From the NCBI GenBank assembly GCA_001871075.1, contig MNUP01000045.1, positions 1 through 14,532 on the forward strand: DNA of 14,532 nucleotides, read 5' to 3'. Of this stretch, positions 2,504 through 14,532 are shown piece by piece. Each line of letters opens with the position of its first letter. Within the stretch, counting starts at the first letter, position 1. A program made the translations under genes and the position numbers. The notes beneath the pieces were generated by a model. It saw nothing but the letters and a program-made list of their open reading frames with translations, made no database searches and was not told the origin of the DNA. This stretch comes from Candidatus Desantisbacteria bacterium CG1_02_49_89. GTDB taxonomy: Bacteria; Desantisbacteria; UBA1551.

Positions 2504-2598
2504 ATCGTACATCGTTCTTCGTTCATCGTTTAAACTCATGACCCATGACACATGCCTCATGACTGTTTTTACGATGCACGATGCACGAAGCACGATTC
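2504..2598 (+). repeat. Inverted pair of heptamer arrays, word ATCGTTC
   Basis: The left arm 2504-2531 has four units of the ATCGTTC type. The right arm 2571-2598 has four units of ACGATGC type, its reverse complement. By hand about 21 of 28 positions could pair. The span between the arms is a third array with another word, followed by a short T run. The pair fills the gap between two same-strand genes. Confidence 0.78.
2535..2563 (+). repeat. Heptamer array, word CTCATGA, inside the inverted pair
   Basis: Four units (CTCATGA, CCCATGA, CACATGC, CTCATGA) occupy the loop of the surrounding inverted arrays. An in-frame ATG at 2552 within it opens a longer reading frame, but this is unlikely to be the real start of the next gene. 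Confidence 0.72.
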
Positions 2599-2600
2599 GC

Positions 2601-2606
2601 GAGGAG
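2601..2606 (+). promoter_or_regulatory. Shine-Dalgarno GAGGAG that sets the start at 2612
   Basis: GAGGAG lies five bases before ATG 2612 and directly after the right arm of the repeat. It supports 2612 over the in-frame ATG at 2552 in the repeat. Confidence 0.75.
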
Positions 2607-2611
2607 TAAGG

Positions 2612-3706
2612 ATGGATGAGATCGAGGAACTCGAAAAACAGGGGTATGACATAATCGATATAATTGCCGGGGATGTAAAACCCGCCCGGGAAGTGCAGTA
2701 CCTTGTTGACCGGGTCGTGAAGAACAAGGGCGGGGATTTCTACGGCGGGATCCTTTTCGAGCTGGCTTCCGTCCGGTTCCCGGAGGACAGGGCAAAAGCC
2801 CTGTGGCAGGAAATACTGCGCCACAAATACATAATAAGCGAAAGGCTGGGCAGGAACATAGGGGTAAGGGTCGCGACGCTTGACTACCTGGAAAACATCA
2901 AAAAACTCATCAGCGCCCCTGTCATAATTCCCGAGACCGAGTTCGCGAAAACGCTCAAGCTTTCAACCACCGACGACCTGACAGGCCTTTACAACCGCCG
3001 GTACCTTAACAACAGGCTGCGCGCCATGGTTTCCGAGGCGCAGGCGGAAAGATCCAGGTTTTCCGTCCTGATGATGGACCTGGACGGCTTTAAGAAATTC
3101 AACGACACGCAGGGCCACCAGGCAGGCGACCTTATACTGCAGGAGTTTGCCCGCGTCCTGAGGGAAGGCCTGCGCAAGAGCGACATGGTCGCGCGGTACG
3201 GCGGGGACGAAATGGTCTGTATCCTGCCGCTTACCGATAAATTCATTGCCAAAACAGTCGCGTCCAAGATCTGCGAACAGGTCAGGAAGGATTTTTCCGA
3301 GGTGAAGATCTCACTTAGCACCGGGATCGCGGAATACCCGACCGACGCGGCGGACGACGAAGGCCTTATATTGCAGTCAGACGCCGCGATGTACAGGGCA
3401 AAGGCGTTCGGCGGCAGCGCGGTTTCCTATTTCCACCCGGTTGAAATAACATACCGCCATACCGAGCCCGGGCCCGGGGATGTTGCCTGCGTGGGCGACT
3501 TCAACAGGTGGAACAGCAAGAAAGGCATGATGAAGCCGGATGAAAAGCCGGGGGTTTGGAAGGTTTCCCTGGACCTGCTCGCGGGAAAATACAAATATAA
3601 GTTCCTTATAGACGGTTCAAAATGGGTTACAGACCCTTCGCAGGTTGAATGCGGGGATGACGGGTTCGGCGGGATGTGCTCTGTCCTTAGTGTAAGAATG
3701 GAGTGA
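2612..3706 (+). CDS. Diguanylate cyclase (GGDEF) fused to C-terminal glycogen-binding CBM48/AMPK-beta-like domain
   Basis: A 364-residue protein with no signal peptide or membrane segment. Residues 1-110 are mostly helical and not recognised. The GGDEF domain covers about 115-275: DDLTGLYNRRYL, MMDLDGFKKFND (metal-binding Asp156), and the active-site loop GGDEM at 197-201, with Met in place of the usual Phe. RKSD (188-191) sits five residues before it, as in the RxxD product-inhibition site, so the enzyme should make c-di-GMP and be feedback inhibited. Residues about 283-363 resemble the AMPK-beta glycogen-binding module: VGDFNRWN, GVWKVSLDL, GKYKYKFLIDGSKWVTDP. Trp300, Lys330 and Trp338 align by eye with its sugar-contacting residues. 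The likely idea is a cyclase that senses or docks on glycogen or another alpha-glucan; this is inference. A CBM fused to a cyclase is unusual to me. Confidence 0.87.
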   Translation: MDEIEELEKQGYDIIDIIAGDVKPAREVQYLVDRVVKNKGGDFYGGILFELASVRFPEDRAKALWQEILRHKYIISERLGRNIGVRVATLDYLENIKKLISAPVIIPETEFAKTLKLSTTDDLTGLYNRRYLNNRLRAMVSEAQAERSRFSVLMMDLDGFKKFNDTQGHQAGDLILQEFARVLREGLRKSDMVARYGGDEMVCILPLTDKFIAKTVASKICEQVRKDFSEVKISLSTGIAEYPTDAADDEGLILQSDAAMYRAKAFGGSAVSYFHPVEITYRHTEPGPGDVACVGDFNRWNSKKGMMKPDEKPGVWKVSLDLLAGKYKYKFLIDGSKWVTDPSQVECGDDGFGGMCSVLSVRME

Positions 3707-3714
3707 ATGTCCGT

Positions 3715-3785
3715 CGTGTAACGTGTAAGGTGTAAGGCAAACTTTAAAAGATTATTTAATCCCGTTACACGTGACACGTTACACG
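3715..3785 (+). repeat. Inverted pair of heptamer arrays, word GTGTAAC
   Basis: The left arm 3715-3737 and the right arm 3763-3785 are reverse complements at 20 of 23 positions, each about three 7-bp units, with a 25-base A/T-rich loop. The hairpin occupies nearly the whole gap and ends eight bases before the GGAGGA ribosome-binding site (3794-3799) of the next gene. No T run follows it, so a simple intrinsic terminator is not supported. Confidence 0.82.
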
Positions 3786-3805
3786 GTTTTTCCGGAGGAA
3801 AAAGA

Positions 3806-4501
3806 ATGGCGTGTTACGAAAAAGACCCTGACCGCGACGGAAGCCACAACAGGCAGGAGCTTGAAGCGGCAGCGAAAAACATAGGCATAAGCCTTTTCGG
3901 GGTTGCGCTTCTTGAGCCAGCGCGCGAATACTTCCACGGATCGATAAAAGAGAGCGCTTCAGGCCTGAAATTCGGCATCTCAATGGGTGTCAGGCTGCAG
4001 GACAGCATAATAGACGGGATAAACGGTGAGCCGACCCTGATCTACAAGCACCACTACTCGACAGTAAACCACCTTTTAGACCAGGCGGCTTTGCGGATAG
4101 CGGGCCTGATACAGGATAAAGGAGCGAGGGCAATACCGGTTCCCGCTTCGCAGATCGTGGACTGGGAAAAACAGCTTGGCCACCTTTCCCACAGGGTGAT
4201 CGCTTATTACGCGGGCCTTGGCTGGATAGGCCGATCCACCCTTCTTGTGAACCCGCGGTCCGGCGCAAGGGCCAGGTACGTGACCGTGCTGACAGACCTT
4301 CATTTAACGGCTGATAAACCCGCTGAAGGCAGCTGCGGGGAATGTCGAAGATGCATTGAGGCCTGCCCTGCGGGGGCTATAACAAAGGAAGGATACGATA
4401 AGGCAAAGTGCCTTGAAAAATTGAAGGAGTTCGCGAAGAAGCAGGGCATCGGGCAGTTCATATGCGGGGTTTGCGTAAAGGCTTGTAAAGGCAGTTCTTA
4501 A
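3806..4501 (+). CDS. Short QueG-like (COG1600) iron-sulfur protein
   Basis: A 231-residue protein, started by GGAGGA six bases upstream of ATG 3806. AGLGWIGRSTLLVNP (136-150) is the signature seen in epoxyqueuosine reductases. Eight cysteines fit two [4Fe-4S] clusters: C177-x2-C180-x2-C183-x3-C187-P, then C202 and C220-x2-C223-x3-C227. In QueG this core reduces epoxyqueuosine in tRNA with cobalamin. Here the protein is short (QueG is typically over 300 residues) and ends right after the second cysteine set, without the HEAT-type tail. The stretch before AGLGW reads LGHLSHRVIAYY, unlike the usual DSxPxxER segment as I recall it. It is therefore likely a paralogue with another substrate, such as a redox or corrinoid-linked partner. 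Family is good; calling it queG would be too strong. The stop codon TAA is shared with a repeat array. Confidence 0.75.
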   Translation: MACYEKDPDRDGSHNRQELEAAAKNIGISLFGVALLEPAREYFHGSIKESASGLKFGISMGVRLQDSIIDGINGEPTLIYKHHYSTVNHLLDQAALRIAGLIQDKGARAIPVPASQIVDWEKQLGHLSHRVIAYYAGLGWIGRSTLLVNPRSGARARYVTVLTDLHLTADKPAEGSCGECRRCIEACPAGAITKEGYDKAKCLEKLKEFAKKQGIGQFICGVCVKACKGSS

Positions 4502-4608
4502 TTATGAATTATGAGTGATGAGTTATGTCCCTTCGGGACATCAACAGCACGGATGTTTATTTAAATAAAATTCCTTCACTCATAAATCATAATTCATAAC
4601 TCATAATT
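4500..4608 (+). repeat. Inverted pair of heptamer arrays, word AATTATG
   Basis: The left arm 4500-4527 has four units (AATTATG, AATTATG, AGTGATG, AGTTATG) and includes the last two bases of the upstream stop codon. The right arm 4581-4608 has four units of CATAATT type. By hand 24 of 28 positions pair. The loop holds a small hairpin TGTCCC TTC GGGACA (4526-4540) and an A/T-rich part. Confidence 0.82.
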
Positions 4609-4639
4609 GATATCCGTCTCACAAGGGCCAGCATAAAAC

Positions 4640-5218
4640 ATGGGGAAGATAAAAGAAGCCAAACCTGTTAAGCTGATCATGGGCGTTATCGCCTGCTGCG
4701 CAGGAACCGCGGAGGAAGCTGAGGGACTGCTCGTGAAAAAGTTCGGCAGCATTGACGCGCGCAGCGCCGTTACCCCTTTCGGCTTTACCGATTACTATGA
4801 GAATGAAATGGGCAAGAATCTCCTGCGCGTGTGGATCTCTTTTGAAAAGCTGGTTGACCCGCAGGAGCTTGCCGGCATAAAGACAGAGACGAACAAGATC
4901 GAGGAAAAATTAAGTGTAGGGGTCGGATTCATCCGACCCGAAGGCGCGGGCTTGATAAATCAAGCCCCTGCAAAAAAACGGCGCGTAAACCTGGACCCCG
5001 GGTATATTGACGGGGGCAAGCTTGTCCTGGCAAGCACGAAGAACTACAGCCACAGGATCTATTTAAGCAAGGGGATCTACGCGGAAGTGACGCTTATTTT
5101 TGAAAAAAGCGCGTTCCGCCCGCTCGCGTGGACTTATCCTGATTATAAATCCGTTACCGCGCTTGATTTTCTGGTAAAAGCGCGCAGCCGCTACCTCGCA
5201 CAACTAAAAAAGGCGTAG
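4640..5218 (+). CDS. DUF4416 family protein with an in-frame repeat insertion
   Basis: A soluble 192-residue protein of the uncharacterised DUF4416 family. Recognisable parts are VKLIMGVIACC near the N-terminus, FGFTDYYENEMGKNLLRVWISFE (47-69), RRVNLDPGYIDGGKLVLAST (114-133), HRIYLSKGIYAEVTL (138-152) and LAWTYPDYKS (162-171). No function is established that I know of. Residues about 93-113 are encoded by a palindromic element (see 4915-4972) and do not look like family sequence; the flanks rejoin in the correct frame. The Shine-Dalgarno is weak: an AAGGG at 4623-4627 sits 12 bases from ATG 4640. The next ATG in frame is well inside conserved sequence, so 4640 is preferred. Confidence 0.83.
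   Translation: MGKIKEAKPVKLIMGVIACCAGTAEEAEGLLVKKFGSIDARSAVTPFGFTDYYENEMGKNLLRVWISFEKLVDPQELAGIKTETNKIEEKLSVGVGFIRPEGAGLINQAPAKKRRVNLDPGYIDGGKLVLASTKNYSHRIYLSKGIYAEVTLIFEKSAFRPLAWTYPDYKSVTALDFLVKARSRYLAQLKKA
4915..4972 (+). repeat. Double-hairpin palindromic element inserted inside the DUF4416 gene
   Basis: A 58-bp unit bounded by TGTAGGGG (4915-4922) and CCCCTGCA (4965-4972), which are inverted with one mismatch. Inside are two perfect 9-bp inverted repeats: GGGTCGGAT/ATCCGACCC (4920-4928, 4931-4939) and GGGCTTGAT/ATCAAGCCC (4948-4956, 4959-4967), each around two central bases. It is read through in frame without a stop. From memory, similar GTAGGGG...CCCCTAC double palindromes are common between genes in uncultured bacteria. 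Confidence 0.82.
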
Positions 5219-5235
5219 TTAGCGGGCAAATTGTT

Positions 5236-5318
5236 AGATTGCCAGATTTAAGATTGTAAGAGTGAAAATAAATTGATTTTTATCTAAAACAATCCTTCAA
5301 TCTTACATCTCACAATAT
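5236..5318 (+). repeat. Inverted pair of degenerate 7-8 bp arrays, word AGATTG
   Basis: The left arm 5236-5264 and right arm 5290-5318 pair at about 22 of 29 positions by hand, with a 25-base A/T-rich loop. Units are AGATTGN-like with 7- or 8-bp spacing. It lies between the DUF4416 stop and the HD-GYP gene. Confidence 0.7.
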
Positions 5319-5347
5319 CTCAATGAACTAAGGAATGGGGGTTTAAA

Positions 5348-7804: not shown

Positions 7805-7826
7805 AAAACAGTCATTAATTCAAAAT

Positions 7827-7850
7827 CGTGTCAACGTGTCAACGTATCAG
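7827..7850 (+). repeat. Octamer array, word CGTGTCAA
   Basis: Three 8-bp units: CGTGTCAA twice and CGTATCAG. Confidence 0.78.
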
Positions 7851-7856
7851 AGTAAC

Positions 7857-7901
7857 AAAGTTTATAGAGTTTACAAAGTTTACATAGTTTACAGAGTCTA
7901 A
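7857..7901 (+). repeat. Nonamer array, word A(A/G)AGTTTAC (5 units)
   Basis: Five consecutive 9-bp units sharing AGTTTA (AAAGTTTAT, AGAGTTTAC, AAAGTTTAC, ATAGTTTAC, AGAGTCTAA). The best-defined long array in the window. Confidence 0.82.
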
Positions 7902-7931
7902 ATCTCAGGGAACTCAGTGGCTGATTTTAAA

Positions 7932-7970
7932 GCAGTTTACAGAATTTATAGAGTTTACAAGTTTACAAGG
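7932..7970 (+). repeat. Nonamer array, second block of the AGTTTAC word
   Basis: GCAGTTTAC, AGAATTTAT and AGAGTTTAC continue the 9-bp word after a 30-base interruption, followed by AAGTTTACAAGG, where the register slips by one base. Confidence 0.75.
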
Positions 7971-7973
7971 AAA

Positions 7974-8003
7974 AATTCGTGGTAATTCGTGGTAATTCGT
8001 GGT
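7974..8003 (+). repeat. Decamer array, AATTCGTGGT, three exact copies
   Basis: Three identical 10-bp units in tandem. This is the cleanest member of the family also seen at 271-300 and 14401-14430, and gives its likely consensus. Confidence 0.85.
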
Positions 8004-8039
8004 TAAAAAGTGGTTATTTTCGGGTGTTTGTGTTTTCCT

Positions 8040-12361: not shown

Positions 12362-12377
12362 ATACAAGTTAAAAGTC

Positions 12378-12405
12378 AAATTGCAAATTGTAAATTGCAA
12401 AAGTG
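12378..12405 (+). repeat. Heptamer array, word AAATTGC
   Basis: Four units (AAATTGC, AAATTGT, AAATTGC, AAAAGTG) in the 70-bp gap before the barrel-protein gene. There is no inverted partner nearby. The lead-in AAAAGTC at 12371-12377 resembles the repeats at 10077 and 10172. Confidence 0.72.
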
Positions 12406-12431
12406 AAAGATATACCAAAGAGGCATAGAGA

Positions 12432-14315: not shown

Positions 14316-14321
14316 CGAAGA

Positions 14322-14362
14322 ATGATTACAGTGATTATTAACTGATGATTACAGTGATTATT
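14322..14362 (+). repeat. 23-bp tandem duplication
   Basis: An 18-base sequence ATGATTACAGTGATTATT occurs at 14322-14339 and exactly again at 14345-14362, a period of 23 bp. It starts seven bases after the barrel-protein stop. Each copy contains shorter TGATTA words. Confidence 0.82.
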
Positions 14363-14400
14363 TTAATACATACAGTTAAAGATTGAAAGATAGACAGTTA

Positions 14401-14430
14401 AATTCGTGGAAATTCGTGTTAATCCGTGGT
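14401..14430 (+). repeat. Decamer array, AATTCGTGGA type, copy 3
   Basis: Three 10-bp units: AATTCGTGGA, AATTCGTGTT, AATCCGTGGT. It precedes a copy of the 46-bp module, in the same order as at 271-383. Confidence 0.8.
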
Positions 14431-14447
14431 TGCAAAGACAGTCATTT

Positions 14448-14493
14448 GTAAAAGCCAAAGATTTCTCCGTGTCTCCGTGCCTCCGTGGTGATT
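14448..14493 (+). repeat. 46-bp module with 8-bp CTCCGTGC units, copy 2
   Basis: Same length and layout as 338-383, with about six substitutions: GTAAAAGCCAAA, three octamers, and GGTGATT at the end. No start codon follows directly. The final bases 14521-14532 (GCGTTTAGTCCC) look like the start of another hairpin unit like that at 10106-10133, cut by the window edge. No gene is seen in 14316-14532. Confidence 0.75.
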
Positions 14494-14532
14494 TTTTCGT
14501 GCTTTCGTGCGACAGCCCCTGCGTTTAGTCCC

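Follow-up and report, generated by a model that had tools for sequence, protein, structure and literature searches.

Dispersed intergenic elements with inward-facing, imperfectly matched arrays of short words in a Candidatus Desantisbacteria genome

What kind of DNA occupies four consecutive gaps between genes of Candidatus Desantisbacteria bacterium CG1_02_49_89, in each of which an array of a short word is followed by its inverted counterpart, with another word in every gap? The gaps lie between positions 2504 and 5318 of contig MNUP01000045.1, analysed here at its full length of 14,532 nucleotides (the window), which is one entire contig of a draft genome of 2.48 Mb in 150 contigs. To our knowledge, bacterial intergenic tandem heptamers have been recognised for decades, with no consensus on how they arose; the copy number in this genome suffices for statistical tests of mechanism. 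With about even confidence, we read the arrays as the arms of non-autonomous, dispersed, hairpin-forming intergenic DNA elements of roughly 100 to 200 bp, akin to repetitive extragenic palindromic (REP) sequences and miniature inverted-repeat transposable elements (MITEs). Their arms, made of a word of 7 to 10 bp, would face inward around an AT-rich core, and their spread and the upkeep of their mismatches would follow the course proposed below.

Each gap was compared with 500 dinucleotide shuffles. The inverted repeat was significant in all four gaps and the 7-bp array in gaps 1 to 3 (p = 0.002 each), which confirmed the inverted array pairs described in an earlier reading made from the sequence only; in gap 4 the tandem periodicity was weak (p = 0.094, best period 8). 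In gap 1, a left arm of four units of the word [AT]TCGT[AT]C on the plus strand (2504 to 2535, inverted-repeat score 18) and a right arm with the word ATCGTGC on the minus strand (2565 to 2596) enclose a nested loop array of CATGACA (2537 to 2563, plus strand), the word core of which, TCATGA, is self-complementary. The right units have G where the left units have T or A, so that each unit has one or more mismatches. Gap 2 holds GTGTAAC/G on the plus strand (3715 to 3735) and GTGTAAC on the minus strand (3765 to 3785), with 19 of 21 positions paired. The left arm of gap 3, four units of A[AG]T[TG]ATG on the plus strand (4500 to 4527, inverted-repeat part 4503 to 4527), overlaps at its start the stop codon of the upstream gene. 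It is adjoined by a small REP-like hairpin, TCCCTTCGGGACAT (4528 to 4541), and then by a core (4541 to 4579) composed of ATCAACAGCACGG, the AT-rich centre TTTATTTAAATAAA and TTCCTTCAC; besides its arms the gap contains a small hairpin, ATGTCCCTTCGGGACAT. The right arm, A[AG]TTATG on the minus strand (4580 to 4609; full array 4580 to 4612, inverted-repeat part 4588 to 4612), terminates in the type-Y sequence AGTGAAGG. Gap 4 carries the weakly periodic word AGATTG(N) on the plus strand (5230 to 5264) and the AGATTG word on the minus strand (5290 to 5324). An Rfam search gave no match.

The same design was found throughout the genome. Counts were made over 1.68 of the 2.48 Mb (68% of the genome). 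Calling open reading frames crudely by length gave 1402 genes there, with 930 gaps 40 bp or longer. Gap arrays with periods of 7, 8, 9 and 10 numbered 487, 214, 143 and 160, compared with 7.6, 10.0, 8.6 and 6.2 in shuffles; periods 4 to 6 and 11 to 13 were near or modestly above chance, and period 14 is the double of 7. After removal of overlaps, 972 arrays remained, spread over 553 of the 930 gaps. Periodicity at lag 7 was 0.301 in gaps against a background of about 0.265, and 0.250 in genes. Of 914 gaps, 295 contained an inverted repeat with arms of 18 bp or more, versus 39 in shuffles, and in 114 of the 295 both arms contained an array. Successive arrays of the same period were inverted partners 75 times, where 13 were expected for words drawn at random, at spacings of 12 to 71 nt (10th to 90th percentile). 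The arrays thus exceed shuffled sequence and recur genome-wide. The constancy of form seen in the four gaps therefore stood; the words, taken at first as private to each gap, proved to belong to a shared lexicon, and the heptamer period that holds for gaps 1 to 3 is in the genome one of four unit lengths (7, 8, 9 or 10 bp). Among heptamers the lexicon includes AATTATG (96 arrays), ACGTACG-type words (78) and GTTAAAA (45), among 8-mers CGTTGACA (52) and CACGGAGA (31); the 9-mer AGTTTACAA accounts for 63 arrays and the 10-mers CCACGAATTT, CACGAATTAA, CACAGGTTAA and CACGGATTTT for 14 to 20 each. The sequence AATTATGAATTATGA matched the genome 299 times at no more than one mismatch, its reversed control once.

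The architecture is described here for the AATTATG elements, to which that of gap 3 belongs. Their arms followed the order left then right 44 times and the reverse order once. The outermost unit was nearly always AATTATG, and variation in inner units was confined to fixed positions (A[AG]T[TG]ATG). The arms enclose a core of TCAAnnnCA[AT]GGA, an AT-rich centre with TTTAAA, and the inverse of the first part. The core half CC[AT]TGnnGTTG was joined to AATTATG arms at some loci and to CGTTGACA 8-mers at others, producing hybrids, and the opposite half can bear yet another word or several REP-like hairpins in a row; at other loci of the genome, the core seen in gap 3 links AATTATG arms with CGTTGACA arms.

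The relation between the two arms was assessed by a register-free re-pairing test, in which the complementarity of an element's own arms was compared with that of arms re-paired among elements sharing a word (2000 permutations). Across 33 AATTATG elements, own arms reached a best ungapped score of 19.85 and re-paired arms one of 21.72 (sd 0.37); a value as low as the former occurred in none of the 2000 permutations. For the longest perfect run the values were 13.1 and 15.5, with maxima of 17 within elements and 35 across them. Removal of near-duplicates left the deficit unchanged. Since a single asymmetric ancestor of the elements could produce such a deficit, the copies were also oriented for maximal arm asymmetry, and the deficit stayed (23.52 versus 25.99, sd 0.45, 0 of 2000). 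Score deficits were likewise obtained for the 8-mer CGTGTCAG (10 of 2000) and the 9-mer AGTTTACAG (1 of 2000), and the GTCGTAT class showed a weaker trend on run length (71 of 2000). AATTATG arrays as delimited by the period finder showed no score deficit (1664 of 2000) and a mere tendency to shorter runs (317 of 2000), which we attribute to truncation of the arms, the full arm being needed. An earlier test over all words, in which the inverted-repeat register maximised pairing, had shown no effect and is superseded by the register-free version. The arms within an element are kept at about one mismatch for each unit, and no perfect stem exceeds 17 bp. The same design was seen in two Nitrospirota contigs (L170 and L171), for example TCGGATT x4 facing TCGGAAG x4, where nearly every unit has two mismatches at the same place. 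No published report of this mismatch rule was found in the open-access literature, and an earlier report elsewhere is possible. The re-pairing test is simple and applicable to any genome.

Evidence for spread came from the copies themselves. Whole elements or parts of them recur between unrelated genes, in either orientation, at 80 to 95% identity, and this identity stops at the outermost unit or at an internal junction. The elements are missing from the closest named genome found, Candidatus Desantisbacteria bacterium CG1_02_38_46 of the same order, which has 2.5 7-bp arrays per 100 kb, compared with 38.5 in the present genome. In 52 syntenic neighbour pairs, array-bearing gaps had a median length of 144 bp here versus 40 bp in this relative, and array-free gaps 20 versus 5 bp. 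In the window, the GGDEF and iron-sulfur genes are separated by 99 bp, compared with about 3 bp in the relative, the iron-sulfur protein of which is 68% identical, and the 129-bp gap before the HD-GAF gene corresponds to an overlap. Ten Y1_Tnp matches were found in the genome. A RAYT pair on contig C23 is flanked by REPs of the words CAGGGCT and CAAACCT, and the same REPs nest in the loops of heptamer elements. These neighbouring RAYT-type Y1 transposase genes (positions 1739 to 2222 and 3765 to 4248 of that contig) sit in long REP clusters (TCAGACCTGAAGGTCTGAGTTAC / GTAACTCAGGGCTTTAGCCCTGA).

Fixed polarity, copying of whole elements and imperfect arms point to selfish hairpin DNA under palindrome-instability selection, and this is the simplest account. 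The elements may spread as units by copy-insertion of folded or single-stranded DNA, possibly through an enzyme of the Y1/HUH type, and be tolerated in gaps; words could turn over through slippage and through exchange of half-elements at the core. Long perfect palindromes are unstable, being subject to SbcCD-type deletion or cleavage. The mismatches would persist because such palindromes are deleted or cut, so that imperfect pairs alone survive. More tentatively, the elements may represent a widespread class of bacterial intergenic hairpins, occurring in several phyla (here, in Nitrospirota and possibly in Geobacter and Xanthomonas), in which the arms share a word of 7 to 10 bp, about one mismatch per unit is a structural rule needed for propagation or survival, and words turn over while the rule stays.

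Several observations weigh against spread as selfish hairpin DNA. Many arrays are unpaired, and unpaired AATTATG arms (58) outnumber the paired elements (44). A target-site duplication was not visible in the aligned copies, the divergence of which limits this test. The gap comparison draws on 19 syntenic pairs, among which are several noisy or spurious ones (inserted genes, paralogous matches), and the sole usable relative is distant (about 60 to 70% protein identity), which leaves single insertions undatable. In the surveyed 68% of the genome, heptamer arrays were not found to flank a transposase or any other gene, no autonomous transposon with heptamer-array ends was found, and apart from the RAYT pair no multicopy transposase was present. 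None of the seven Y1_Tnp loci inspected among the ten, with both flanking gaps, was bracketed by inverted heptamer arrays. A mobilising enzyme was not found for the heptamer-array elements; the nested RAYT-type REPs do have theirs.

The strict polarity of the arrays and the restriction of variation within units to certain positions (A[AG]T[TG]ATG) would also suit binding sites, each word being read by one DNA- or RNA-binding regulator and the pairs being looped together. Such a function has been proposed in Geobacter metallireducens, where tandem 7/8-mers with one word per class mostly form opposite-strand pairs at variable distance; classes 1 to 4, with 24, 21 and 8 pairs, were read as putative global regulator binding sites (PMC2700814). 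In the present genome, arrays lie close to genes, at median distances of 10 nt from the stop codon and 29.5 nt from the start codon. In gaps of at least 60 bp, however, arrays were similarly frequent whether the gap was codirectional (66%), convergent (66%) or divergent (58%), which shows no promoter preference and speaks against both promoter and terminator roles. To read so many words in 553 of the 930 gaps, an implausibly large set of regulators would be needed, and whole elements, including the AT-rich core and the nested REPs, are copied as units. We therefore consider regulator sites unlikely.

The sequence-only reading had also suggested selection for an RNA hairpin at gene junctions, which might protect transcript ends, direct processing or act as a mismatched antideterminant of RNase III. 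The elements are located between the stop codon and the ribosome-binding site, and all four gaps fold better than their shuffles (z-scores of −5.5, −4.2, −6.1 and −2.5 for gaps 1 to 4). Regular stem mismatches could tune RNase III. On the coding strand, however, G-U mismatches were not favoured over A-C mismatches (142 versus 167 overall, 20 versus 41 for AATTATG alone), which speaks against selection for RNA pairing. No intrinsic terminator, with a G+C-rich stem followed by a T run at the 3' end, was called at the hairpins. Inverted repeats were not clearly rarer in divergent gaps (29%) than in codirectional (35%) or convergent ones (42%). With no G-U bias and little influence of gap type, selection for a fully paired RNA hairpin lost its support, and RNA hairpins of any of these kinds appear rather improbable.

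The other process suggested for the four gaps, in which the arms grow by hairpin-templated copying or slippage and one arm writes the other, agrees with the match of word and unit length across most pairs. Such copying predicts own arms more alike than arms from different elements; the opposite was observed in the re-pairing test, which speaks against templating. Mirror-copying of the arms was rejected, and the wider process is very improbable. Chance, AT-rich composition or an assembly artefact, for which one might invoke the 150-contig draft and the weak periodicity of the AGATTG gap by itself, has a negligible probability given 143 to 487 arrays per period versus 6 to 10 in shuffles, reversed-word controls of 0 to 1 and recurrence of the design in independent Nitrospirota contigs.

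Paired inverted arrays had been thought undescribed, and this did not hold, as they are reported in Geobacter metallireducens (PMC2700814) and Xanthomonas (PMC4692102). With the Geobacter sites our elements share tandem 7/8-mers, opposite-strand pairs and variable distance. They are set apart by about 970 arrays in 1.68 Mb, drawing on dozens of words where those sites use few, by shared cores and hybrids, by the REPs nested in them and by the mismatch rule. The heptamer arrays of Xanthomonas, with 70 to 75 cases of two convergent GGGAATC sites forming an inverted repeat (PMC4692102), resemble ours in their convergent pairs, but they use one G-rich word for which G-quadruplexes were proposed, and here the words are many and not G-rich. 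As with the short tandemly repeated repetitive (STRR) sequences and long simple sequence repeats of cyanobacteria and the TAACTGA direct repeats of Beggiatoaceae (PMC4679880), intergenic tandem 7-mers are far above chance and the word depends on the genome; those repeats are described as direct, pairing and polarity not being their defining feature. Like REP, BIME and REPIN sequences (PMC3116915, PMC3733652), the elements are short extragenic imperfect palindromes in high copy, and RAYT-linked REPs nest inside them, but REPs are single stems of 20 to 40 bp and the elements have multi-unit arms. They also differ from RAYT-mobilised REPs and REPINs in that no RAYT gene flanked by heptamer arrays was found at the seven loci inspected. 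With MITEs they have in common small size, non-coding sequence, dispersal and terminal inverted repeats; no target-site duplication was visible in the aligned copies, and no autonomous partner was found in the surveyed 68% of the genome. A minisatellite-bearing MITE is reported from Porphyromonas gingivalis (PMC4596501). The kind itself is therefore already known; what is new here is the abundance, the modularity of core and arm, the evidence for insertion and, most of all, the mismatch rule.

Arrays elsewhere in the window were not always paired. Those in gaps 150 to 374, 7805 to 8009, 12362 to 12431 and 14316 to 14532 were significant in the shuffle test with no inverted partner, so that pairing is common but not universal. 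In the last of these gaps, an array of three CACGGAG(R) units lies on the minus strand (14464 to 14487; TCTCCGTG on the plus strand). The word CACGGAGR equals that of the Geobacter class-2 sites, TCTCCGTS[Y] (PMC2700814). Three tandem copies of CACGGAG occurred in 4 of 144 other genomes, but the reversed control matched in two genomes, in one of them 23 times, which makes the cross-phylum case for this word weaker. A 10-mer array on the minus strand at 7974 to 8003 (CCACGAATTA; AATTCGTGGT on the plus strand) has a word that is also found in other phyla. Three copies of the 10-mer CACGAATTNN were present in 8 of 385 other genomes and its reversed control in none.

Similar arrays were encountered on viral contigs and plasmids. 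Among IMG/VR viral contigs, L238, L240, L241 and L245 carry a AACACGAATTATCACGAATTNACACGAATT 10-mer array, in several of them unpaired just 5' of a start codon, and on L244 the array is paired and inward-facing. A plasmid search with the gap 3 element returned array-sized pieces alone, of 35 to 47 bp. The Serratia plasmids NZ_CP098501.1 and AP028508.1 match the CATAATTCATAACTCATAATT array of this gap at 10 and 7 places, the best of which lies under no annotated gene.

Further repeats and neighbouring genes of the window deserve brief mention. The open reading frame at 2612 to 3706 encodes a single protein in which a GGDEF domain precedes an AMPK1_CBM/CBM48 glycogen-binding domain, and its orthologue in the relative is of equal length with a similar C-terminus. 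An imperfect palindrome of the ATGATTACAGTGATTAT type lies at 14322 to 14362, and a further dispersed family is represented by ATCACCGTAATC in 71 gaps and AATCACTGTAAT in 57 gaps of the genome. Finally, the DUF4416 gene contains at 4915 to 4977 an in-frame insertion of about 17 residues (VGVGFIRPEGAGLINQAPA) that is absent from the orthologue in the relative. It is built from two REP-like palindromes, GGGTCGGATTCATCCGACCC and GGGCTTGATAAATCAAGCCC, the second of which is also present in four gaps of the genome.

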